64,000 bases of DNA from Oscillatoria sp. FACHB-1407 (GTDB lineage Bacteria; Cyanobacteriota; Cyanobacteriia; Elainellales; Elainellaceae), in assembly GCF_014697545.1 (NCBI RefSeq), contig NZ_JACJSA010000001.1:124001-188000 (forward strand), given 5' to 3'. This document shows, piece by piece, positions 7,465 to 18,039 of this stretch (position 1 is its first letter; the number at the start of each line of letters is the position of its first letter). Both the position numbers and the translations under genes were made by a program. The notes beneath the pieces are model-generated. The model was not told where the DNA came from, did not search any database, and saw only the letters and a program-made list of their open reading frames with translations.

Positions 7465-8079
7465 TTACTCCTCTAAGGGAGAGGGATACAGGATAACTGT
7501 GAGGAAACGAATCGGGAGTTCAACCAGTTGTTCGGGACCATGGGGCACATCTCCCCGAAAGGTAAGCGAGTCCCCCGGTTCCAGCAAGTAGGTATATTGT
7601 CCGTGGCGATATTCCAATTTTCCCTCCAACATATAGATGAATTCGGTGCCGGGGTGTTCAAAGGTGGGAAAAACCTCTGAGGCATCGTTCATCGTAATCA
7701 GAAAGGGTTCAAACACTTTTGTGGGACCCTGGTCGTATGCCAGCAGGTGATAGGTATGCCCCAATCTGGTGCCCCGGCGCACGACCTCCATGCCGTTACC
7801 ATTCTTAACCAGTTGAGCACCCCCCTCCGGAATGTTGTAGTTACGAAACAAAGTGGACAGCGACACGCCCAGGGCACCCGCCAGTTTGGAGAGAGTTTCT
7901 AAGCTGGTGGCAGTTTGAGCATTTTCAATTTTGGACAACATGCCGCGTGAGATGCCGACCTGCTCGGCAACCTCTGCGATCGTCAACCCATGATTTTGGC
8001 GAATTTCACGAATCGTATTCCCCAGATATCGCTCTAGAGAATGGTCTGCGATCGCCTGTTCACTCTGGTTTTGGGTCAT
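7465..8079 (-). CDS. XRE-family HTH regulator with C-terminal cupin domain
   Basis: An N-terminal Cro/C1-type helix-turn-helix (about residues 15-70, TIAEVAEQVGISRGMLSKIE) is joined to a C-terminal cupin barrel (about 130-195, GTEFIYMLEGKLEYRHG and GDSLTFRGDVPHGPEQL). This architecture is common in small-ligand-responsive repressors of amine and amino-acid catabolism. I place the start at the second ATG (8079) because GAGGATAGGT sits just upstream of it. The ATG at 8097 has no ribosome site and would place the start inside a palindrome that looks like an operator. The gene diverges from purU and the sox/glx genes, so it is the obvious candidate local regulator. The ligand is unknown. Confidence 0.88.
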   Translation of the reverse strand: MTQNQSEQAIADHSLERYLGNTIREIRQNHGLTIAEVAEQVGISRGMLSKIENAQTATSLETLSKLAGALGVSLSTLFRNYNIPEGGAQLVKNGNGMEVVRRGTRLGHTYHLLAYDQGPTKVFEPFLITMNDASEVFPTFEHPGTEFIYMLEGKLEYRHGQYTYLLEPGDSLTFRGDVPHGPEQLVELPIRFLTVILYPSPLEE

Positions 8080-8092
8080 ACCTATCCTCGTA

Positions 8093-8157
8093 GTCATGAA
8101 TCATGACAGGAAACTTTGTTGACACACATGAATCATATATTGCACTATTATTCATGA
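8093..8157. promoter_or_regulatory. Candidate operator repeats between the regulator and purU
   Basis: The divergent intergenic region holds GTCATGAATCATGAC (8093-8107), two perfect 7-bp arms around a central A. A second copy of the core, CATGAATCAT (8127-8136), follows about three helical turns away, and a third half-site in inverse orientation, ATTCATGA, lies at 8150-8157. Repeated, helically phased sites next to an HTH-cupin gene suggest autoregulation and control of the purU-sox-glx genes. A TTGACA lies at 8119-8124, but no -10 hexamer at good spacing is evident. Confidence 0.6.
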
Positions 8158-8183
8158 AAGTGTCCTGATTAGGAATTTTTGAG

Positions 8184-9044
8184 GTGTCATCTGTCAGACG
8201 ATATCGATTGACGTTGTCCTGCCCCGATCGCGTTGGGGTCGTGGCGGCAGTGAGCACGTTTGTTGCTAGCCATCAAGGTTGGATCTTAGAGGCGCAGCAC
8301 CACGCCGATCAAACCGCTCAACGATTCTTCATGCGGCAAGAGATTTTGGCAGAGTCGATTCCCTTTGGATTGGATGAGTTTCGTCGGCAGTTTGAGGCGA
8401 TCGCCCAAAAATTCAACATGACCTGGCAAGTCACCGACTCAGCCCAAAAAAAACGAGTGGTGATTCTTGTCTCCAAATCAGAACACTGTCTGTATGATTT
8501 GTTGTCTCGCTGGCAAAGCGGCGAATTGGATATCGACATTCCCTGCGTCATCTCCAATCACGACACGCCACGTCGCTTTGTCGAGTGGCATGGCATTCCC
8601 TTTCACTATGTGCCCGTCACACCAGACACAAAGCAGGAAGCGTATGACAAATTGATGCACCTGTTTGAGTCGGTACAGGGCGATGTCATGGTGCTGGCAC
8701 GCTATATGCAAGTGCTCTCGCCGGAAGTGTGCGATCGCTATCCCGGACGCATCATCAACATTCACCACTCGTTTTTGCCGTCGTTTATCGGTGCGAAACC
8801 CTATCATCAAGCCTATGAGCGAGGCGTGAAGCTGATCGGCGCGACCTGCCATTACGTTACCTCTGAACTCGATGCCGGACCCATCATCGAACAGGATGTG
8901 ATTCGCATTGATCACTCTGACTCCGTGGAGGATTTGATGCGTTACGGCAAAGATATTGAAAAGACTGTGTTAGCAAGAGGGTTGCGCTATCACGTTGAAG
9001 ATCGGGTGCTCGTACATGGCAATAAAACCGTTGTATTTCGCTGA
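8184..9044 (+). CDS. purU: Formyltetrahydrofolate deformylase
   Basis: 286 residues. An N-terminal ACT domain (about 5-85, LTLSCPDRVGVVAAVSTFVA) precedes a formyltransferase-fold hydrolase domain with the active-site stretch NIHHSFLPSF and YVTSELDAGPII, diagnostic of PurU. It hydrolyses 10-formyl-THF to formate and THF. Translation starts at GTG 8184, preceded by AGGA at a suitable distance. As first gene of the presumed sox/glx transcription unit it would recycle THF after methyl groups have been loaded on it. PurU is a usual neighbour of heterotetrameric sarcosine oxidase genes in proteobacteria, which supports the assignment. The gap to soxB is about 50 bp. Confidence 0.95.
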   Translation: MSSVRRYRLTLSCPDRVGVVAAVSTFVASHQGWILEAQHHADQTAQRFFMRQEILAESIPFGLDEFRRQFEAIAQKFNMTWQVTDSAQKKRVVILVSKSEHCLYDLLSRWQSGELDIDIPCVISNHDTPRRFVEWHGIPFHYVPVTPDTKQEAYDKLMHLFESVQGDVMVLARYMQVLSPEVCDRYPGRIINIHHSFLPSFIGAKPYHQAYERGVKLIGATCHYVTSELDAGPIIEQDVIRIDHSDSVEDLMRYGKDIEKTVLARGLRYHVEDRVLVHGNKTVVFR

Positions 9045-9092
9045 ATTATTTTGCTAAATGGGTTTCGTTAAGGGGTGTTGAGGAAGTAAAGT

Positions 9093-10334
9093 ATGCCGTT
9101 GCCATTGTTGAAGTTTGCGCTATCGAAAGAGTATCCCGAACCTCGCATGTTTCGTCAGCGCGATCGCCTCAAATCGAGCTACGATGCGGTGATCATTGGT
9201 GGGGGAGGTCACGGATTAGCGGCGGCCTATTACCTGGCGCGAGATTATGGCATGACCAATGTAGCCGTCCTGGAACGCGGCTATCTGGGAGGGGGAAACA
9301 CCGGACGCAACACGACCATCATTCGCTCCAATTACCTCACTCCCGAAGGAGTAAAGTTCTACGATGAGTCGGTGCGCTTGTGGCAGGACTTGTCGGAAGA
9401 CTTTGACCTGAACCTGTTCTACTCCACGCGCGGACACTTCACCCTGGCGCATACTGACTCCTCAGTGCGAACCATGCGTTGGCGTGCCGAAGTCAATAAG
9501 CATTACGGGGTGGATAGCGAGTTGGTGGGTCCGGATGAAATTCAAGCAGCTTGCCCTCATATGGATCTGCGTTGTGGCGGACATGCCCCCGTTTTGGGGG
9601 CTCTTTATCATGCTCCGGGGAGCATTGCCCGTCACGATGCCGTCGCGTGGGGCTATGGGCGCGGAGCCGACCAGCGAGGCGTTGAGATTCACCAACAAAC
9701 GGAAGTCTTGGGCATTACGGTGAAATCCGGTCGCGTCACCGGAGTGCAAACCAGTCGAGGCGATATCGAAACGCCTAAAGTCTTGTGTGCCGTCGCAGGT
9801 TTTACGCCACGTGTATTGCAGATGGTAGGGTTGCGATCGCCCCTTTATGTGCATCCGCTGCAAGCGATGGTTAGCGAACCAATGAAACCCTGGCTTGACC
9901 CGATCATCGTCTCCGGTAGCCTGCACGTTTACGTCAGCCAGACCGCACGGGGAGAACTGGTAATGGGAGCCTCCCTCGACCCCTATGAATTGCACTCTAC
10001 TCGCTCCACCTTTGACTTTGTTGAAGGGTTAGCGGCACACATGCTGGAGCTATTTCCCTTTTTGTCCTACGTCAATATCGTGCGGCAGTGGGCAGGCATG
10101 GCCGATATGACGCCTGACTTCGCCCCCATCATGGGCAAAACTGTGATTGAGGGCTTTTATCTCGATGCGGGTTGGGGTACCTGGGGTTTTAAGGCGACTC
10201 CCGTTTGTGGCAAAACAATGGCTTATACCGTGGCGAGCGATCGCAATCACGAACTCATTGAAGATTTCTCGCTCGATCGATTTGCCAACTACGAGTTGTT
10301 AGGCGAAAAGGGAGCCGCATCGGTTGGACATTAA
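9093..10334 (+). CDS. soxB: Heterotetrameric sarcosine oxidase-type flavoprotein, beta subunit
   Basis: 413 residues of the DAO/glycine oxidase fold. The FAD-binding GGGGHGLAAAYYLA motif lies near residues 35-50. His181 in ARHDAVAWG sits in the region that carries the covalent FMN in characterised heterotetrameric sarcosine oxidases. The C-terminal GWGTWGFKATPVCGK closes the FAD site. This subunit oxidises the N-methyl group of a secondary amine (sarcosine, or N-methylglutamate in the mgdA paralogues). The ATG is preceded by GAGGAAG. It heads soxB-D-A-G. A 293-bp gap filled with repeats separates it from soxD. Substrate choice between sarcosine and N-methylglutamate cannot be read from sequence alone. 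Confidence 0.92.
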   Translation: MPLPLLKFALSKEYPEPRMFRQRDRLKSSYDAVIIGGGGHGLAAAYYLARDYGMTNVAVLERGYLGGGNTGRNTTIIRSNYLTPEGVKFYDESVRLWQDLSEDFDLNLFYSTRGHFTLAHTDSSVRTMRWRAEVNKHYGVDSELVGPDEIQAACPHMDLRCGGHAPVLGALYHAPGSIARHDAVAWGYGRGADQRGVEIHQQTEVLGITVKSGRVTGVQTSRGDIETPKVLCAVAGFTPRVLQMVGLRSPLYVHPLQAMVSEPMKPWLDPIIVSGSLHVYVSQTARGELVMGASLDPYELHSTRSTFDFVEGLAAHMLELFPFLSYVNIVRQWAGMADMTPDFAPIMGKTVIEGFYLDAGWGTWGFKATPVCGKTMAYTVASDRNHELIEDFSLDRFANYELLGEKGAASVGH

Positions 10335-10627
10335 AAAAGAAAGAAAAAAGAAGAGAGAAGAGAGAAGAAAAGAAGGATAAACGATAAAGGATGAAGGATA
10401 AAAAAGAACCATAGGCAGGGAAAGTAGAGGCGCGATTTATCGCGTCTGTAGAGAAGAGAGAAGAAAAGAAGGATAAACGATAAAGGATGAAGGATGAAGG
10501 ATAAAGAAGAAAGATCGCTGTCAATTAATGATGCTCCACAACAAATAACTATCAACTATTGACCATTAACAACTGACTTTTAACCACTGACTATTGACCA
10601 TTGACCACTGACTATTGACTTTTAGCA
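10335..10627. repeat. Repeat-filled gap between soxB and soxD (heptamer arrays, hairpin)
   Basis: Contains a roughly 46-bp purine-rich direct duplication (near 10352-10398 and 10449-10495, core AAGAAAAGAAGGATAAACGA). Between the copies is a palindrome, AGAGGCGCGATTTATCGCGT region (10426-10447). The last 60 bp are 7-bp units of the TTGACCA / CTGACTA type. The array runs to within a few bases of the soxD start and has displaced any recognisable ribosome-binding site. Confidence 0.8.
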
Positions 10628-10888
10628 ATGAAACTGATGACGTGCCCGGTGAACGGAACAAGACCGATTTCTGAATTTGTGTGTGGAGGTGAGTTTCGTC
10701 CAATGCCTGATCCACAAACGGCAGACGATGCCACTTGGGCAGATTACGTGATGCATCGCAATGGGGCACCCACAACAAAACGGGAATGGTGGTGTCACAC
10801 TCCCAGCAACACCTGGTTTATTGCCGAACGCAATACTGTAACCGATGAAGTGGTGCGTACCTATTTGTTGGGTCAGGAGGCCGCATGA
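10628..10888 (+). CDS. soxD: Sarcosine oxidase-type delta subunit
   Basis: 86 residues, within the usual range for the small delta subunit. It starts MKLMTCPVNGTRPISEF and contains WADYVMHRN and REWWCHTPSNTWFIAERNT, characteristic of SoxD/MgdB proteins. In classical SoxD the N-terminus carries CPxCG, which helps bind zinc. Here it reads CPVNG, so the second cysteine is missing, and the protein resembles the zinc-less branch that I associate with N-methylglutamate dehydrogenases. The stop overlaps the soxA ATG by 4 bp, so they are coupled. No ribosome site is visible because a heptamer array ends at the start codon. Confidence 0.88.
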   Translation: MKLMTCPVNGTRPISEFVCGGEFRPMPDPQTADDATWADYVMHRNGAPTTKREWWCHTPSNTWFIAERNTVTDEVVRTYLLGQEAA

Positions 10889-13800
10889 GTTATCGTCTAC
10901 CTCCCGTTTTGGGTGAATGGATCGATCGCACTCAACAAGTCTCATTTACCTTTGAGGGTACTCGTTTCACAGGCTATGCAGGGGACACCATTTCGTCAGC
11001 CCTGTGGGCAGCAGGGCAACGCATTCTGGGACGCAGTTTTAAGTACCATCGTCCACGCGGCATTTTAAGTGCGGCGAATCATGATGTGAATACGCTGATG
11101 CAGTCGGGGCAACGGCTCAATGTGCGGGCAGATGTGACGCCATTAGGAGCTAATCCTTCCGCTGGAAGTCCCCCTTCTCAAGGGGGATTTAGGGGGATCT
11201 CTAGAAGTCAGCTAGAGGCGTTTGATTCCCCCTTCCCCCCCTTAAAAAGGGGGGAATTAGCTGGAAGTCCCCCTTATGAAGGGGGATTTAGAGGGATCTC
11301 TAGTGGACAGTCAGATATGGAACTGTCTGCTGTCAACACAGTGGGCGGTGTGGTGAGCGATCGCGCCAGTATCATCAATGCTTTCTCCCGTTTTTTACCC
11401 GTTGGCTTCTACTACAAGGCGTTTCACTCCAAGCGATTTTTTCCCTTCTGGGAGCGGATGATCCGCTCCATGACTGGGTTAGGACGGGCTGATGTCAACA
11501 CGCCTCACATCCGCACTGCCAAACGCTACGACTTTTGTGATGTGCTGGTGATTGGAGCAGGTGTCTCTGGGATGACAGCCGCACTAACAGCCGCAGAAGC
11601 GGGTGCTGATGTGGTGATCGTGGATGAAAATGCACACGCTGGCGGATCAGGAGGCTATCAACGTGGTGGAACAACAGATCGCTTTGAGCGAGTGACGGAA
11701 TTGCAGGAGGCGATCGCCACTCACCCTAACATTCGGCTGTACACCAACACGCAAGCCGCAGGCTACTATGCGGATCACTGGATTTCACTCGTGCATCGCG
11801 ATTACCTCTCCAAAATGCGAGCCAAAACAGTGATTGTGGCTAGTGGAGCTTACGAGCAACCTGCTGTATTTCGCAACAACGATTTGCCGGGAGTGATGTT
11901 AGCATCTGCCGCACAACGGCTAATCTACCGCTATGCGGTGAAACCAATGCATCGAGCAGTGGTCTTCACCGCTAATTCTGATGGCTATCGTGCTGCCTTA
12001 GACTTGCTATCGCAGGGAATTGCAGTGCAGGCGATCGTAGATTTGCGTCACGATTCATCTGCCCCCCTTTCTAAGGGGGGGTGGGGGGATCTCCTCAACC
12101 AAATCCGATCGCACAACATCCCCATCTACAACGGTTATGGCATTTACGAGGCAAGACCCAATCCCGGTGGGGATGGCGTTTCCAGTGCCGTGATTTGCCC
12201 CATTGATGCCGACGGTAAACCTCAAACCAGCGCACAACAAGCGATCGCCTGTGATGGCATTGTTATGAGTGTGGGCTGGGCACCTGCGGCAAATCTGCTT
12301 TATCAAGCGGGAACCAAAATGCAGTTTGATGCTCAGGTGCAGCAGTTTGTGCCTGAGGTATTGCCTGATGGAGTATTCGCTTGCGGGCGGGTGAATGGGG
12401 TCTACGGATTTGAGCAGAAACAGGTCGATGGACAACGGGCAGGATTAGCCGCAGTAAAGCATTTGGGGTTGGTTCAGGAGGTGGGAAATCGCGTTGTTCT
12501 ACGCGGTGATGAGTATGGCATGGCTCCCTCTCATCCCTGGGCGATCGTGCCCCATCCAAAAGGTAAAGAGTTTGTCGATTTTGACGAAGACCTGCAACTC
12601 AAGGATTTTTACAACGCTGCCCAGGAAGGCTTCGACAATATCGAACTGTTGAAACGCTATACCACAGTGGGGATGGGTCCCAGTCAGGGCAAGCACTCCA
12701 ACATGAATGCCCTACGAATTCTGGCACGAATTACCGGACAGACGCCCGATCAGGTGGGTACAACAACCGCTCGTCCGTTTTTCCATCCGGTGCCGATGTC
12801 ACACCTGGCAGGGAAAGGCTTCACCCCCGAACGGCACACGCCCCTGCATAGTCGTCATGCGGCGTTAGGTGCTCAGTTCATGCTGGCGGGTGTCTGGCGA
12901 CGACCCGAATATTACCGTCAGGCTGGAAAGAGCCGTGAGGAGTGCATTCGAGCGGAGGTGAAAGCTGTTCGTACAGGCGTCGGCATTATTGATGTGGGAA
13001 CCCTCGGCAAAATGGAATTGCGCGGCGCAGGTGCCACAGAATTGTTAGAGCGAGTTTACACCGGACGATATGCCAACTTGAAGGTGGGGATGTCGCGCTA
13101 TGCCTTGATGCTCGATGAATTGGGTGTGGTCATCGATGACGGGGTGATTGCTCGATTGGGAACCGATCGCTTCTACTTCACGACGACTACCTCTGGAGCC
13201 GCTAATATCTACCGCGAGTTAGCTCGGCTCAATACCATGTGGCAACTCGATTGTGGCATTGTCAATGTAACGGGAGCACGAGCCGCCGTAAACTTGGCAG
13301 GCCCTCGTTCGCGGGAGGTGCTCAGCCAACTGACCGATCTGGATTTGTCGGCTACCGCATTTCCCTATCTGGGCGTACGTCAAGCCGCGATCGCCGGAAT
13401 TCCTGCTCTCCTGATGCGCGTCGGGTTTGTCGGGGAGTGGGGCTACGAGATTCACGTGGCGGCAGAGTCGGCTCCTGCCCTGTGGGATGCCCTGATGGAA
13501 GTGGGTGCTGCCTTTGGCATCCGTCCCTTTGGCGTGGAGGCACAGCGGCTACTGCGGTTAGAGAAAGGACATCTGATTGTGGGGCAAGATACAGACGGCT
13601 TAACGACCCCCTTTACGGCGGGTCTGGAGTGGGCAGTGAAGCAAGACAAACCATTTTTTATCGGGCAGCGCAGTTTGCAGATTGTCCAATCTCGTCCGGT
13701 GAAACAGAAGCTGGTGGGGTTCATGCTGGCTCCCGATTTTAGCGGAACGGCTCCGCAGGAGTGCCATCTGGCGATCGCCCAGGGAGAAATCGTCGGTCGA

Positions 13801-14010
13801 GTCACCAGTATCGCCTTTAGCCCCACACTCGATCGCTACATCGGGTTGGCATACCTGCAACCGGAACTGGCAACAGTCGGTAATTCCTTCACGATTCGTT
13901 TGTCGGATGGTTCGTTAGTCACCGCGACCGTCAGCCCAACTCCGTTCTACGACCCAGAAAATCTGCGACAAAAGGAACTCGTTCCCCAACGGCAGGAGGT
14001 GCCAGTGTGA
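10885..14010 (+). CDS. soxA: Sarcosine oxidase-type alpha subunit
   Basis: 1041 residues. A 2Fe-2S-ferredoxin-like N-terminal fold (about 1-85) without cluster cysteines; a pyridine-nucleotide/FAD disulfide-reductase-type domain (about 210-540, VLVIGAGVSGMTAALTAAEAGADVVIVDE, broken here: VLVIGAGVSGMTAA then VVIVDE); and a C-terminal GcvT-like THF-binding domain (about 640-1030). It channels the imine product to the folate site, forming 5,10-methylene-THF. Residues about 90-145 are an insertion encoded by a dispersed repeat (GGFRGIS motifs), placed between RADVTPL and MELSAVNTVGG, which are adjacent in ordinary family members. A second smaller repeat scar, APLSKGGWGDLL, lies near residues 393-404. 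Despite this the frame is intact. It overlaps soxD and soxG by 4 bp each. Confidence 0.93.
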   Translation: MSYRLPPVLGEWIDRTQQVSFTFEGTRFTGYAGDTISSALWAAGQRILGRSFKYHRPRGILSAANHDVNTLMQSGQRLNVRADVTPLGANPSAGSPPSQGGFRGISRSQLEAFDSPFPPLKRGELAGSPPYEGGFRGISSGQSDMELSAVNTVGGVVSDRASIINAFSRFLPVGFYYKAFHSKRFFPFWERMIRSMTGLGRADVNTPHIRTAKRYDFCDVLVIGAGVSGMTAALTAAEAGADVVIVDENAHAGGSGGYQRGGTTDRFERVTELQEAIATHPNIRLYTNTQAAGYYADHWISLVHRDYLSKMRAKTVIVASGAYEQPAVFRNNDLPGVMLASAAQRLIYRYAVKPMHRAVVFTANSDGYRAALDLLSQGIAVQAIVDLRHDSSAPLSKGGWGDLLNQIRSHNIPIYNGYGIYEARPNPGGDGVSSAVICPIDADGKPQTSAQQAIACDGIVMSVGWAPAANLLYQAGTKMQFDAQVQQFVPEVLPDGVFACGRVNGVYGFEQKQVDGQRAGLAAVKHLGLVQEVGNRVVLRGDEYGMAPSHPWAIVPHPKGKEFVDFDEDLQLKDFYNAAQEGFDNIELLKRYTTVGMGPSQGKHSNMNALRILARITGQTPDQVGTTTARPFFHPVPMSHLAGKGFTPERHTPLHSRHAALGAQFMLAGVWRRPEYYRQAGKSREECIRAEVKAVRTGVGIIDVGTLGKMELRGAGATELLERVYTGRYANLKVGMSRYALMLDELGVVIDDGVIARLGTDRFYFTTTTSGAANIYRELARLNTMWQLDCGIVNVTGARAAVNLAGPRSREVLSQLTDLDLSATAFPYLGVRQAAIAGIPALLMRVGFVGEWGYEIHVAAESAPALWDALMEVGAAFGIRPFGVEAQRLLRLEKGHLIVGQDTDGLTTPFTAGLEWAVKQDKPFFIGQRSLQIVQSRPVKQKLVGFMLAPDFSGTAPQECHLAIAQGEIVGRVTSIAFSPTLDRYIGLAYLQPELATVGNSFTIRLSDGSLVTATVSPTPFYDPENLRQKELVPQRQEVPV
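11162..11311. repeat. Dispersed GGGGGATTTAGGGGGATC-type repeat inside soxA
   Basis: Two copies of a hairpin unit (TCCCCCTT...AAGGGGGATTTAGGGGGATC, at about 11168-11202 and 11270-11304) flank a TTCCCCCCCTTAAAAAGGG stem. All of it is read in frame as SPPSQGGFRGI and related residues. The same family occurs in soxG (14320-14560), the UvrD-like gene (39242-39415), again in soxA (12058-12095) and between genes at 63607-63648. Confidence 0.88.
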
Positions 14011-14912
14011 ACTACAAACTTCAAACCCCTCTCCGACTCAGCCCAATTCACGATCAATTGCAATCCCTCAAGGGAACCTGGCGCGAGATCAACGGAATGC
14101 CTGTACTAACCACAGTACCTGCAGTAGATGGAAACTTACCAGTTGCGATCGCTGACCTTTCCTATCTAACCCGCTTTGGGGTAAAGGGATCAGGGGCGAT
14201 CGCCTGGTTAGCGCAACAGGGCATTCCCATTCCAGCACAACCCAATTCCTGGTGTGAACTACCCAATGGTGGCATCGTTGCTCGACTAGGGATGACAGAG
14301 TTTTTGATTGAGGAAGGTGCCCTCCTACCCCCCCAACCTTGGGGGGAACTAGAGCCTCAAAGTCCCTCAGAATTGGGGGATTTAGGGGGCAATGGTTCTG
14401 ACGAAAGTCCCCCTTTTCAAGGGGGATTTAGGGGGATCGAGGATTTAGGGGGTAATGGTTCAGATCCCCCCTTGCCCCCCTTCAAAAGGGGGGAGTTAGA
14501 GTCTGAAAGTCTCCCTTTTCAAGGAGGATTTAGGGGGATCTCTGCTGGGAAGTTGGAGCCTCCCGATCTGCCACCCCAGGTTTACCCCGTCCTGCGTCAA
14601 GACCTGGCGATCGCTCTCTATGGCACCTCCGTCCAGGAGTTATTGCTGCAAACCTGTAGTTTTAACTTTCGAGCGTTATCCCTGTCTGATCACCCAGTGG
14701 TGTTGACCTCAATGGTCGGGGTGTCTGTCACGGTCATTCCTGGCGATCGCGATGGCATACCCCTCTACCGCATCTGGTGTGATGGCACCTTCGGCGCGTA
14801 CTTCTGGGAAACCCTGGTGGCGATCGCGCAGGAGTTGGGAGGCGGAGTGATTGGAGTAGGACAGATACAAAAAATGAAGGAGAAACGCATTAATCGCGTT
14901 TCTCCTGGGTAA
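14007..14912 (+). CDS. soxG: Sarcosine oxidase-type gamma subunit
   Basis: 301 residues; typical SoxG/MgdD subunits are about 170-210. It belongs to the GcvT-like gamma subunit family: N-terminal PIHDQLQSLKGTWREINGMP and VAIADLSYLTRFGVKGSGAI, and C-terminal SMVGVSVTVIPGDRDGI near 235. Residues about 105-188 are rich in Gly, Pro and Ser (QGGFRGI, LGDLGGNGSD) and are encoded by a dispersed repeat, which explains the excess length. The start is GTG at 14007, overlapping the soxA stop by 4 bp. The last codons (RINRVSPG) fall within a perfect hairpin that may also act as a terminator. Folate-side structural role inferred from family. Confidence 0.85.
   Translation: MNYKLQTPLRLSPIHDQLQSLKGTWREINGMPVLTTVPAVDGNLPVAIADLSYLTRFGVKGSGAIAWLAQQGIPIPAQPNSWCELPNGGIVARLGMTEFLIEEGALLPPQPWGELEPQSPSELGDLGGNGSDESPPFQGGFRGIEDLGGNGSDPPLPPFKRGELESESLPFQGGFRGISAGKLEPPDLPPQVYPVLRQDLAIALYGTSVQELLLQTCSFNFRALSLSDHPVVLTSMVGVSVTVIPGDRDGIPLYRIWCDGTFGAYFWETLVAIAQELGGGVIGVGQIQKMKEKRINRVSPG
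14320..14560. repeat. Dispersed repeat block inside soxG
   Basis: About 240 bp of several joined repeat units, including AAGTCCCCCTTTTCAAGGGG and GGGGGATTTAGGGGGATCGA forms and two GAATTGGGGGATTTAGGGGG forms. The reading frame of soxG passes through every unit without a stop. Confidence 0.85.
14878..14906. terminator. Perfect hairpin at the soxG 3' end
   Basis: AGGAGAAACGC and GCGTTTCTCCT form an 11-bp stem with a 7-nt ATTAATC loop, inside the last codons of soxG. There is no long T-run. Related palindromes with the same ATTAATCGCG centre occur at 16616-16635 and 16647-16666, so it may be a mobile palindrome that doubles as an attenuator before glxB. Confidence 0.5.
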
Positions 14913-14939
14913 AAATCAATTATTCATCGCGAAGGATCT

Positions 14940-15836
14940 ATGTGTGGAATTGTTGGATTACTGATTAAAAAGCCAGAGCTACGCGATTCGCTAGGGGAAC
15001 TGATGGTGCCTATGCTAATCGGTATGAGCGATCGCGGCCCTGACTCGGCAGGATTGGCGGTGTTTACTGAAACATTGCCTGATGGCTATCGCAAATACAG
15101 CCTGTATTCGGGGGGCACTACCTTTGACTGGGCAGGATTGGGGCAAGATTGGCAAACACAATTTGGCAGCAAACCCGATTTGCAAGAGCATGGCAATCAT
15201 GCCGTCCTCACGGTAGATCTATCTCCAGATCAGGTGAAACAGTGGCTTAAGACCCACTACCCTCAATTGCACTTGCTCTCAACCGGGCGCACCATTGACC
15301 TCTACAAAGATACGGGCAAACCTGCTACCGTTGCCGATCGCTACAACTTTCGCTCACTCAAAGGGACGCATCTCGTCGGGCACACCCGCATGGCAACCGA
15401 GTCAGCGGTGACTCCCGCTCACGCCCATCCCTTCACCGCAGGTGAAGATTTCTGTCTGGTACACAATGGCTCTCTTTCCAACCCTTACGAAATTCGTCGC
15501 AAGTTAGAGCCGCAAGGGATTCACTTTGAAACCGACAACGATACTGAAGCCGCCTGTCGCTACCTGGAATGGCGGATGCGCGAAGGCGATGACCTGGAAA
15601 CCGCGATTCAAACTGGATTTGAAGAATTGGATGGTTTCTACACCTTCCTCATGGGGACGGCAGACAAATTAGCATTAGTGCGCGACGCCTTCGCCTGTAA
15701 ACCCGCTGTCGTGGCTGAAACCGACGATTATGTGGCGATCGCCTCTGAGTTTCGATCGCTGGCTCACCTGCCTCAGGTGAAACACGCCAACATTTATGAA
15801 CCCGCACCGGAGGAGATGTACGTATGGACAGTGTGA
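14940..15836 (+). CDS. glxB: Class II glutamine amidotransferase, GlxB/MgsA type
   Basis: 298 residues. Begins MCGIVGLL, so Cys2 becomes the N-terminal nucleophile after Met removal, followed by MSDRGPDSAGLAVF and later HTRMATESAVTPAHAHPF and VHNGSLSN, all of the Ntn-hydrolase glutaminase fold. It corresponds to the amidotransferase third of glutamate synthase split into a separate protein. In N-methylglutamate synthase the three subunits MgsA, B and C have this split, and in rhizobia the equivalents are named GlxB, C and D. Role inferred: release and channel an amino or methylamino group from a glutamine analogue. An AAGGA ribosome site precedes the ATG. It overlaps glxC by 13 bp. Confidence 0.88.
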   Translation: MCGIVGLLIKKPELRDSLGELMVPMLIGMSDRGPDSAGLAVFTETLPDGYRKYSLYSGGTTFDWAGLGQDWQTQFGSKPDLQEHGNHAVLTVDLSPDQVKQWLKTHYPQLHLLSTGRTIDLYKDTGKPATVADRYNFRSLKGTHLVGHTRMATESAVTPAHAHPFTAGEDFCLVHNGSLSNPYEIRRKLEPQGIHFETDNDTEAACRYLEWRMREGDDLETAIQTGFEELDGFYTFLMGTADKLALVRDAFACKPAVVAETDDYVAIASEFRSLAHLPQVKHANIYEPAPEEMYVWTV

Positions 15837-16537
15837 TGACCCCAACCCTTAATAAAACCACCTTCGATTTAGCGCAAACTCCGCTGCGAGAAGTCAATCA
15901 CTTTCTGCATCACAGTGCCGTGCATCTGGCGGATCAAACGATTGAAATTCTGAATCCGGATGGAGCACACAACATTGCCGTAGGGTTAGATGCCCCTGTA
16001 AAAGTTCAAATTCAGGGACACGTCGGCTATTACGCCGCTGGCATGAACAAACAGGCAACCGTCACCATCCATGGCAACGCAGGCCCCGGTGTGGCTGAAA
16101 ACATGATGTCGGGTCTGGTGCATGTCAAAGGCTTTGCCTCCGTTTCGGCAGGCGCATCCGCCCATGGCGGCACGCTGATTATCGACGGAGACGCCAGTTT
16201 GCGTTGTGGCATTTCCCTCAAGGGAGCCGACATTATTGTGGGTGGCAGCGTCGGAAGTTTCTCCGCTTTCATGGCGCAGGCAGGACGAATGGTGATTTGC
16301 GGCGATGCTGGTGATGCGCTGGGAGACTCCCTTTACGAAGCGGTCATCTACATTCGCGGCACTATCAAATCTCTGGGTGCGGATGCTCAGATTGAACCGA
16401 TGACCGAGAGCGATCGCACTGCCCTCACCGAACTTTTGGCCAAAGCAGGCTTTTCCTATAGTCCTGACGAATTCAAACGAGTTGCCTCTGCTCGACAGCT
16501 TTATCACTGGAACGCCGACGCCAATCAAGAATATTAG
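15824..16537 (+). CDS. glxC: GltB C-terminal (GXGXG) domain protein, GlxC/MgsB type
   Basis: 237 residues made almost wholly of the right-handed beta-helix repeat of glutamate synthase C-termini, with GXGXG-like turns (GHVGYYAAGMNKQATVTIHG, GLVHVKGFASVSAGASAHGG). It is a structural subunit that bridges the amidotransferase and FMN subunits. The ATG at 15824 is preceded by GGAGGAG and lies 13 bp inside glxB. An alternative in-frame ATG at 15836 overlaps the glxB stop. It is co-directional with glxB and glxD. A 152-bp gap with two palindromes separates it from glxD. Confidence 0.88.
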   Translation: MDSVMTPTLNKTTFDLAQTPLREVNHFLHHSAVHLADQTIEILNPDGAHNIAVGLDAPVKVQIQGHVGYYAAGMNKQATVTIHGNAGPGVAENMMSGLVHVKGFASVSAGASAHGGTLIIDGDASLRCGISLKGADIIVGGSVGSFSAFMAQAGRMVICGDAGDALGDSLYEAVIYIRGTIKSLGADAQIEPMTESDRTALTELLAKAGFSYSPDEFKRVASARQLYHWNADANQEY

Positions 16538-16615
16538 GGGAAAGGATAAAGGATGAAGGCTAAAGGATGAAAAAAGAAGAATGAAAAGCTCATCCATTCC
16601 ACCCCCATTCCGTAC

Positions 16616-16666
16616 AGACGCGATTAATCGCATCTCTTCTAAGTACAGACGCGATTAATCGCGTCT
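16616..16666. repeat. Paired palindromes between glxC and glxD
   Basis: AGACGCGATTAATCGCATCT (16616-16635) and AGACGCGATTAATCGCGTCT (16647-16666, a perfect 20-bp palindrome) lie 11 bp apart after a short purine-rich heptamer run. The centre matches the hairpin at the soxG end and the one at 10426-10447. Confidence 0.75.
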
Positions 16667-16689
16667 CTAACCCTACTCCCTTTTTACTT

Positions 16690-18039
16690 ATGGAAAACCA
16701 CAAACCCATCTACCGCGAAGAATCCTGGGGATACGATCGCCGCGCCATTCACTATATCCAGGATGCAGCCGCTCACGGACTGTACGAAATCCGGGGGTTG
16801 GGAGCAAAACGCCGACTACCCCATTTCGATGATCTGGTCTTTTTGGGAGCCTCTCTGACCCGCTACCCACTGGAGGGTTATCGGGAGAAGTGCTCTACTA
16901 AAACGGTGTTGGGCACCCGCTATGCCAAAAAACCAATTGAACTGGAGATCCCCATTACGATCGCCGGAATGAGTTTTGGTTCCCTCTCTGCCAATGTCAA
17001 AGAGGCATTAGGTTTAGCTGCAACCGAAGTGGGCACCTCGACCACTACCGGGGATGGGGGCATGACGCAGGAGGAACGCTTGTCCTCTAAAACTCTGGTC
17101 TATCAGTGTTTGCCCTCCCGCTATGGCTTTAACCCCGATGATGTGCGAAAAGCCGATGCGATCGAAATGGTAATTGGTCAAGGGGCAAAACCGGGTGGTG
17201 GCGGAATGCTCCTGGGACAAAAGATTAATCCCCGGGTTGCTGCCATGCGGACGTTACCCGAAGGGGTGGATCAGCGATCGGCGTGTCGGCATCCGGACTG
17301 GACAGGTCCCGATGATCTCACGATCAAAATTCAGGAGTTGCGCGAGTTGACAGATTGGGAGAAACCAATCTACGTCAAAGTTGGCGCATCCCGTACCTTC
17401 AATGATGTGAAATTGGCGGTTCATGCCGGAGCCGATGTGGTGGTCGTGGATGGGATGCAGGGTGGTACAGCCGCTACACAAACCGTGTTTATTGAGCATG
17501 TGGGCATTCCCACGCTGGCAGCAGTGCGTCAGGCGGTGGATGCTCTGGAAGATCTGAACATGAAAGGCAAAGTGCAACTCATTGTCTCTGGTGGCATTCG
17601 GACGGGAGCCGATGTGGCAAAAGCCCTGGCAATGGGAGCCGATGCGGTGTCGATTGGTCAGGGGGTGCTGATTGCGTTGGGGTGCAATAGCGAAACCTAT
17701 ATTCAAAATGGGGAGCATCTCTCTGCCGTTGAGGATTATGCGGCACTGGGCACGGCTCCTGGTGTTTGTCATCATTGCCATACGGGTAAATGTCCGGTGG
17801 GCGTGACAACGCAAGATGCCGTGTTAGAGAAACGGTTGGAACCGGAAGTCGGGGCACGTCGTGTCAGAAATTACCTCAAGACGCTCAACATGGAACTGAC
17901 CACGATCGCCCGTGCCTGTGGCAAACAAAACGTGCATCACCTGGAGCGGGAAGACTTAGTCGCACTCACTGTAGAAGCCGCTGCGATGGCGCGAGTTCCG
18001 CTGGCGGGCACCGATTGGATTCCGGGTTGGCGTAACTAA
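16690..18039 (+). CDS. glxD: FMN-dependent glutamate-synthase-like subunit, GlxD/MgsC type
   Basis: 449 residues of the glutamate synthase central TIM-barrel family. AGMSFGSLSANVKEALGLAA, GQGAKPGGGGMLLGQKI and VSGGIRTGADVAKALAMGAD form the FMN and 2-oxoglutarate site. CHHCHTGKCPVGVTTQD provides the Cys cluster expected to ligate an Fe-S centre. In N-methylglutamate synthase this subunit makes the amino acid from 2-oxoglutarate. It is the last gene of the presumed purU-sox-glx set; a 500-bp repeat-containing gap follows. No separate small beta subunit is nearby, so the electron donor is unknown. It might instead be a ferredoxin-type GltS fragment with another role, but the glxB-C-D order argues against that. 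Confidence 0.9.
   Translation: MENHKPIYREESWGYDRRAIHYIQDAAAHGLYEIRGLGAKRRLPHFDDLVFLGASLTRYPLEGYREKCSTKTVLGTRYAKKPIELEIPITIAGMSFGSLSANVKEALGLAATEVGTSTTTGDGGMTQEERLSSKTLVYQCLPSRYGFNPDDVRKADAIEMVIGQGAKPGGGGMLLGQKINPRVAAMRTLPEGVDQRSACRHPDWTGPDDLTIKIQELRELTDWEKPIYVKVGASRTFNDVKLAVHAGADVVVVDGMQGGTAATQTVFIEHVGIPTLAAVRQAVDALEDLNMKGKVQLIVSGGIRTGADVAKALAMGADAVSIGQGVLIALGCNSETYIQNGEHLSAVEDYAALGTAPGVCHHCHTGKCPVGVTTQDAVLEKRLEPEVGARRVRNYLKTLNMELTTIARACGKQNVHHLEREDLVALTVEAAAMARVPLAGTDWIPGWRN

Follow-up and report, generated by a model that had tools for sequence, protein, structure and literature searches.

A probable N-methylglutamate operon of betaproteobacterial type, with GmaS encoded elsewhere, in the cyanobacterium Oscillatoria sp. 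FACHB-1407

Introduction

The use of methylamine by the N-methylglutamate (NMG) pathway has been described in proteobacteria. In Methyloversatilis universalis FAM5, the genes of the pathway go up on methylamine, on which mutants in mgsC or mgdD no longer grow (PMC5023235). PurU and FolD have been proposed to process the methyl carbon (PMC7574528). Here we describe a block of nine genes in a window of 64,000 nucleotides, the whole stretch of DNA analysed, from Oscillatoria sp. FACHB-1407 (contig NZ_JACJSA010000001.1, positions 124,001 to 188,000; host genome of 8.13 Mb in 66 contigs). The block, at positions 7465-18039 of the window, is very probably a cyanobacterial NMG operon of the betaproteobacterial/Acidithiobacillus type that was gained horizontally and turns methylamine into glutamate and a C1 unit together with a class C gamma-glutamylmethylamide synthetase (GmaS). 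In titles, beginnings of abstracts and passages of the literature (PMC7574528, PMC10753782, PMC11446756 and PMC12588301 among them), with subscription papers and preprints outside the scope, we found no description of the NMG pathway in cyanobacteria. While the pathway itself is established, its occurrence in this phylum and the replacement of GmaS from outside the operon appear to be new.

Operon organization and proteobacterial relatives

The coordinates and strands of the nine open reading frames (ORFs) in the original prediction were confirmed, and all nine frames are open. A regulator with an XRE-type helix-turn-helix and a cupin domain (7465-8097, minus strand; PF01381 (HTH_3), PF07883 (Cupin_2)) is divergent from the operon, which begins on the plus strand with purU for formyltetrahydrofolate deformylase (8184-9044; TIGR00655, 386 bits against a cut-off of 286). 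Next come the mgdABCD genes of NMG dehydrogenase, namely soxB or mgdA for the flavoprotein subunit (9093-10334; TIGR01373, below cut-off), soxD or mgdB for the delta subunit (10628-10888; PF04267), soxA or mgdC for the alpha subunit (10885-14010; PF13510, PF07992, PF17806, PF01571, PF08669) and soxG or mgdD for the gamma subunit (14007-14912), all on the plus strand. The SoxA profiles correspond to a ferredoxin-like, an FAD/NAD-binding, an A3 and a folate-binding GCV_T domain. The mgsABC genes of NMG synthase close the operon on the same strand: glxB or mgsA for a class II glutamine amidotransferase-like subunit with Cys2 (14940-15836; PF13522/PF13537 (GATase_6/7); translation starting MCGIVG), glxC or mgsB for the GXGXG-domain subunit (15824-16537; PF01493) and glxD or mgsC for the flavin mononucleotide (FMN) glutamate-synthase-like subunit (16690-18039; PF01645 (Glu_synthase)). 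Thus the three adjacent mgsABC subunits of the NMG pathway are all present, one with Cys2 of the amidotransferase, one with the GXGXG domain and one with the FMN glutamate synthase domain. The gene families had been named correctly: Pfam and NCBIfam profiles support eight of the nine, and SoxG, which no Pfam or NCBIfam model matched in the profile searches, is assigned by position and by homology to soxG of related clusters (38-74% identity over the matched parts). The genome holds one MgsC, one SoxA and one FolD above cut-off.

The Acidithiobacillus caldus plasmid mpAca1.1 (L181) carries a divergent XRE regulator followed by purU, soxBDAG, gmaS, glxBCD and folD; its soxG is unannotated in the record and was found by homology. 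It agrees with our block in gene order, divergent regulator and purU in first place, and differs in its glnT/gmaS before glxB, its folD behind glxD and a SoxD with four zinc ligands. This order, whole or in part, is seen in many of 80 loci from a GlxD search, several betaproteobacteria included, while several other loci show gmaS-glxBCD alone within the stretch available; the 80 are the best of at least 592 relatives and are biased toward sequences near our own. The linkage of gmaS is not constant in other loci either: in L187, gmaS-mgs and mgd are separated by an amt gene and a transposase. Since the block recurs in 32 of 388 sampled cyanobacterial genomes (roughly one in twelve, some copies being cut by contig ends or having broken frames) and also in proteobacteria, the operon is not a product of chance.

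All mgs and mgd subunits resemble those on a contig of Methyloversatilis sp. (L089), with identities in the best segments of 78% for soxB, 73% for soxD, 59% for soxA, 52% for soxG, 72% for glxB, 71% for glxC and 88% for glxD. In comparison with the NMG pathway of M. universalis FAM5, our block has purU in the operon, its gmaS outside it and of another class, and a cyanobacterial host. GlxD is 81-88% identical to its counterparts in Acidithiobacillus and betaproteobacteria, and the regulator is 61-78% identical to those that occupy the equivalent divergent position in Methyloversatilis sp. L089 and Acidithiobacillus. SoxB and SoxA show 43-46% and 33-35% identity to alphaproteobacterial proteins annotated as sarcosine oxidase, some of which also adjoin glnT/glx genes. 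Among the alphaproteobacterial NMG clusters compared (Paracoccus sp. MA L183, Rhizobium L186 and Methylobacterium L184), the three enzyme sets occur together in L183 and L186, which also have a GlxA-family regulator; in this group GlxD is 66-72% and SoxA 33-35% identical to ours, and the gene order is different. Gene order, identity and the trees described below place the set of mgsABC, mgdABCD and purU with the betaproteobacterial NMG genes, in agreement with the earlier reading of this set as an NMG one. That glxA is absent from the cluster and folD not adjacent had been correctly seen; however, both absences say little on the pathway. Three of the loci compared have GlxA annotated as a transcriptional regulator, which makes its absence uninformative as evidence, and FolD is encoded elsewhere in the genome, on contig C5.

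Distribution, phylogeny and horizontal transfer

A SoxA-type protein (PF17806) was found in 39 of the 388 cyanobacterial genomes: 32 have the same cluster (our own included), two a divergent SoxA, four a relative of about 470 amino acids and one a weak match. In the record of Kovacikia minuta, which carries the cluster, the soxB frame is split. MgsC was found in 40 genomes, 29 with type 1 (85-93% identity, three in pieces) and 11 with type 2 (68-72%). The trait, earlier called non-standard for cyanobacteria, is indeed uncommon, but it is not singular.

Trees of SoxA and GlxD, which the original prediction had proposed as a check, were constructed, leaving out five loci that duplicate a genome already in the set. 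In the SoxA tree (68 rows, ORFs of 880-1300 amino acids only, root not inferred by the program), the 31 cyanobacterial rows form one clade with support of 100 in the Shimodaira-Hasegawa-like approximate likelihood ratio test (SH-aLRT), within a proteobacterial group that includes Methyloversatilis; alphaproteobacterial SoxA, the Comamonadaceae L118 and L121 and a divergent cyanobacterial pair lie outside this group. With the alphaproteobacterial and divergent SoxA taken as outside, the cyanobacterial clade stands among betaproteobacterial and Acidithiobacillus rows; SoxA groups with NMG-linked proteobacterial proteins. The GlxD tree, built from 61 of 107 rows after manual thinning of the betaproteobacterial ones, agrees with SoxA on transfer, with moderate support. 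Because the cyanobacterial SoxA form a single clade among proteobacterial ones, one transfer into cyanobacteria is likely and is the simplest reading of the sequences.

GmaS encoded outside the operon

The original prediction had gmaS absent from the cluster, and this holds: soxG and glxB are 27 bp apart, and the in-operon gmaS of the NMG pathway is lacking. A candidate is encoded elsewhere in the genome. We distinguished class A (the in-operon type), class C (at least 66% identity to the GmaS of our genome, L004) and class B (GmaS-like). Among the six glutamine-synthetase-family proteins of the genome, L004 on contig C7 (G000:C7:60282-61637) falls in a clade with Rhodovulum GmaS 7cql (SH-aLRT 100), in a tree of 75 rows (ORFs of 400-560 amino acids, betaproteobacterial rows thinned) wherein rows L173 and L177, labelled gmaA, are in fact relatives of another protein of our genome, L006. 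The GmaS of Paracoccus sp. MA L183, Rhizobium L186 and Methylobacterium L184 also group with our class C. L004 has all ten of the GmaS residues taken from PMC7948447 (Lys30, Tyr147, Gln175, Asp177, Glu179, Glu186, Asn188, Arg312, Ala48, Trp300), for which a shift of 20 between the PDB chain and the numbering of the paper was inferred, the residue letters being in agreement. Ala48 and Trp300 stand where glutamine synthetase has Asp50 and Glu304, and the GlnA of our genome is unlike GmaS at these residues. The finding of L004 rules out that gmaS is missing from the organism.

The class B GmaS-like protein (L003, C8:306354-307670) was considered as a substitute and rejected, since genomes have it whether or not class A is present, and three of its ten positions do not match GmaS. 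It has KTYSDEEDWR at the ten sites, and its neighbours (L077, G000:C8:297500-310897), judged by eye, are a Rieske-oxygenase-like protein and an ABC ATPase; it may ligate another amine.

Of the 30 cyanobacterial clusters in which the site can be judged, 21 have class A gmaS after soxG and nine, our own included, lack it; the gmaS frame is broken in two genomes (G285, G007), and the copy of G118 matches 9qur, 'Glutamate--methylamine ligase', with an E value of 8e-218. Class C is present in 58 and class A in 22 of the 388 genomes, and no genome has both. The 40 genomes with MgsC divide into 21 with class A and 19 with class C, none having both or neither (Fisher p 8e-12). Among the genomes with the cluster, class C was found in eight of nine without class A and in none of 21 with class A (p 1.5e-6), or, counted by genus, in six of seven and none of 13 (p 1.8e-4); the genome with neither class, G312 (87% complete), yielded no MgsC, and its cluster is broken. 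All eight genomes with type-1 MgsC and without class A carry class C; Vasconcelosia minhoensis LEGE 07310 also combines a type-1 cluster with class C gmaS. L062, the closest relative by SoxA, retains class A gmaS, which points to a later loss: in our own lineage class A gmaS was probably lost after the transfer. Parsimony gives five changes of the gmaS trait in all. The trait was tested on 27 rows, with L044, L053 and L059 left out and short SoxA not included; a test of independent pairs of class A and class C gave no significance, the events being too few.

In two cyanobacterial genomes (L165 in G002 and L166 in G027), class C gmaS adjoins an ammonium-transporter-like gene (by eye), which could serve methylammonium uptake.

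A second type of cluster, with class C gmaS and distant glxBCD, was seen in L168 (G020), L169 (G127) and L179 (G282). In L169, L170, L171 and L179, a DAO flavoprotein of 401-432 amino acids stands beside gmaS. Meanwhile, nine of the 11 genomes with type-2 MgsC have no PF17806 SoxA match, and the single-chain DAO-family flavoprotein may perform the NMG-dehydrogenase step in this type. It is conceivable, if rather doubtful, that cyanobacteria have two methylamine-assimilation systems with direct use of methylamine nitrogen, a transferred proteobacterial type-1 operon in which, as in our genome, an unlinked class C gene repeatedly took the place of gmaS, and a type 2 that combines class C, a distant MgsABC and DAO-family oxidation.

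Promoter and regulator

Upstream of the operon lies a putative operator/promoter (8107-8167) with the layout CAGGAAACTTT-GTTGACA-spacer-CACTAT-AAAGTGTCCTG. The arms CAGGAAACTTT (8107-8117) and AAAGTGTCCTG (8157-8167) are inverted, with 10 of 11 bases complementary, and between them are a -35-like TTGACA (8119-8124) and a -10-like CACTAT (8143-8148). With up to three mismatches, the core GAAACTTTGTTGACA is present in 22 of the 26 cyanobacterial clusters that could be tested (two of the 28 loci had no usable stretch) and in one of the eight proteobacterial clusters scanned. This core scan replaced an intergenic alignment of five hand-picked stretches, which was poor, two of the stretches being apparently in coding sequence. 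The palindrome is likely an operator over the promoter, through which the XRE-cupin protein encoded divergently probably regulates the operon.

Proposed pathway

In the route that we propose, the class C GmaS encoded on C7, which would have taken over from the class A enzyme lost in this lineage, would join methylamine to glutamate with ATP, yielding gamma-glutamylmethylamide. MgsABC (GlxB-C-D) would then form N-methylglutamate, and MgdABCD (SoxB-D-A-G) would oxidise it to glutamate, passing the methyl carbon to tetrahydrofolate (THF) as methylene-THF. Subsequently, FolD and PurU could turn the C1 unit into formate and regenerate THF, so that on balance the nitrogen of methylamine would end up in glutamate and a C1 unit would be gained. 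That the host may draw both nitrogen and C1 units from methylamine is a sound deduction.

Several observations weigh against this reading. purU is present in 16 of the 27 related clusters where both regulator and soxB were found and lacking in 11, and SoxA and SoxG of our genome have repeat-coded inserts absent from L062. The cyanobacterial GlxD group has moderate support (SH-aLRT 84), and the SoxD of A. caldus, although within an NMG cluster, retains the complete zinc site discussed below. Class C gmaS lies on a separate contig, and no methylamine genes were recognised beside it in the ORF list. In addition, 39 of the 348 genomes without MgsC carry class C, so class C GmaS must have a further role. 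Independent pairs of class A and class C are few, two on well-supported branches and five on all branches; as the genomes are also related, the complementarity of the two classes, strong by count, carries less weight phylogenetically. Finally, G321 (82% complete) has class A gmaS with no MgsC or SoxA detected; the gene (G321:C66:1378-2703) is near the contig start and belongs either to a cut cluster or to a lone gmaS.

Alternative explanations

The soxBDAG genes might encode a true heterotetrameric sarcosine oxidase for sarcosine or glycine betaine, with glxBCD for a separate glutamate-synthase-like enzyme. The block shares with such oxidases (2gag, 1vrq) the subunit kinds, the domain layout, the folate-binding GCV_T domain and a histidine, His181 of the SoxB in the window, which by counting in the alignment corresponds to His173 of 2gag_B, presumably the covalent FMN attachment site; sarcosine oxidase is also the top PDB match of SoxA, SoxB and SoxD. 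However, the NCBIfam cut-offs were missed for soxA (823 of 1164 bits), soxB (470 of 529) and soxD (55 of 117), a first sign against a plain sarcosine oxidase, and the SoxD of our genome is degraded at Cys6, Cys9, His59 and Cys63 of 2gag_D, which we take to be the zinc site of the delta subunit: Cys6 and His59 are kept, whereas Cys9 is replaced by Asn and Cys63 by Ser. In an alignment of 66 SoxD rows (rows of at least 125 amino acids left out), this pair of replacements occurs in all 32 cyanobacterial rows of the cluster; of the 34 others, 26 show the same loss, Methyloversatilis included, six have all four ligands and two have Gln/Ser. The loss does not strictly identify NMG dehydrogenase, since the four ligands are retained in A. 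caldus L181 and Rhizobium L186, both near glnT/glx genes. Meanwhile, SoxA nests among NMG-linked proteins and not among the sarcosine oxidases of the comparison set, alphaproteobacterial proteins that are known as such by annotation and not by biochemical proof, two of which (L183, L186) lie near glx/glnT genes. To our knowledge, a sarcosine oxidase needs no gmaS or mgs partners. In 29 of the 32 cyanobacterial clusters glxB comes next, contig ends interrupting the remaining three, and gmaS accompanies most clusters in which its site can be judged, as given above. A sarcosine oxidase is therefore very improbable here, and sarcosine as the main substrate, considered in the original prediction, is disfavoured, SoxB and SoxA being closer to Methyloversatilis than to the annotated alphaproteobacterial sarcosine oxidases.

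The divergent cyanobacterial SoxA/SoxD of L068 (G028) and L069 (G121), at 36-47% identity, keep all four zinc ligands of SoxD, and those of L069 adjoin class C gmaS. In four other cyanobacterial genomes (L070-L073), a SoxA-like protein of 467-472 amino acids is paired with a SoxB-like protein of 370-383 amino acids, at 25-27% identity; the pair is perhaps another two-subunit amine or amino-acid dehydrogenase.

A small amine other than methylamine as the main substrate, be it ethylamine or some larger primary amine, would fit the formation of theanine from ethylamine by GMAS (PMC7677707), the substrate range of MmGMAS, wider than that of Rhodovulum GmaS (PMC12588301), and the breadth of a related glutamylating enzyme (PMC11335346). 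On the other hand, MgdABCD with its GCV_T domain, PurU and FolD suit a methyl-derived C1 unit (PMC5023235, PMC7574528), and Rhodovulum GmaS, the nearest solved relative of our class C, prefers methylamine (PMC12588301). With MgsC, moreover, at 88% identity to Methyloversatilis, we regard another main substrate as very improbable. A possible dimethylamine route was also looked at: the genome encodes a PF11927 (HODM_asu-like) protein (L190:7886-8773, G000:C12), a family found in one of 14 control genomes and presumably linked to dimethylamine monooxygenase, and no DmmA/DmmB-like neighbour of it was seen by eye in the ORF list of C12, for which reason we do not propose such a route.

The inserts in SoxA and SoxG are in frame and consist of CCCCCTT-NNN-AAGGGGG palindromes, and these two genes account for six of the 71 exact copies present genome-wide; the palindromes (CCCCCTTNNNAAGGGGG) lie at 11170-11285, 12063-12079 and 14409-14527. 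In comparison with L062, the inserts measure about 54 amino acids in SoxA (in a linker) and 68 in SoxG, and the latter was not seen in the relatives aligned. They resemble what we take to be protein-coding palindromic elements of the Rickettsia type. Ratios of nonsynonymous to synonymous differences (pN/pS) are about 0.09-0.40 for seven genes against the nearest relative and low against three relatives; purU and glxD were left out, and synonymous sites are near saturation, which makes the values a rough guide only. Decay of the cluster in this lineage, as the lost gmaS, the palindromes invading soxA and soxG and the disrupted reading frames of certain other clusters (L059 and L054 among them) might suggest, has hardly any probability, given that every frame of our block is open, pN/pS is low, the operator-like palindrome is retained and class C GmaS is present in every type-1 genome that lacks class A.

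Significance

Monomethylamine has been called ubiquitous in oceans (PMC7948447), methylamine-degrading proteobacteria feed ammonium to diatoms (PMC7574528), and GMAS has been used for biocatalysis in Synechocystis (PMC12588301). If about a tenth of cyanobacterial species, as the occurrence of MgsC suggests, encode the route, some phototrophs may acquire nitrogen directly from methylamine, and surveys of gmaS or mgsC that credit every match to proteobacteria would be biased. The rule that a genome with MgsC has either class A or class C GmaS provides a natural system for testing how a pathway makes good the loss of an enzyme with one encoded outside its operon.

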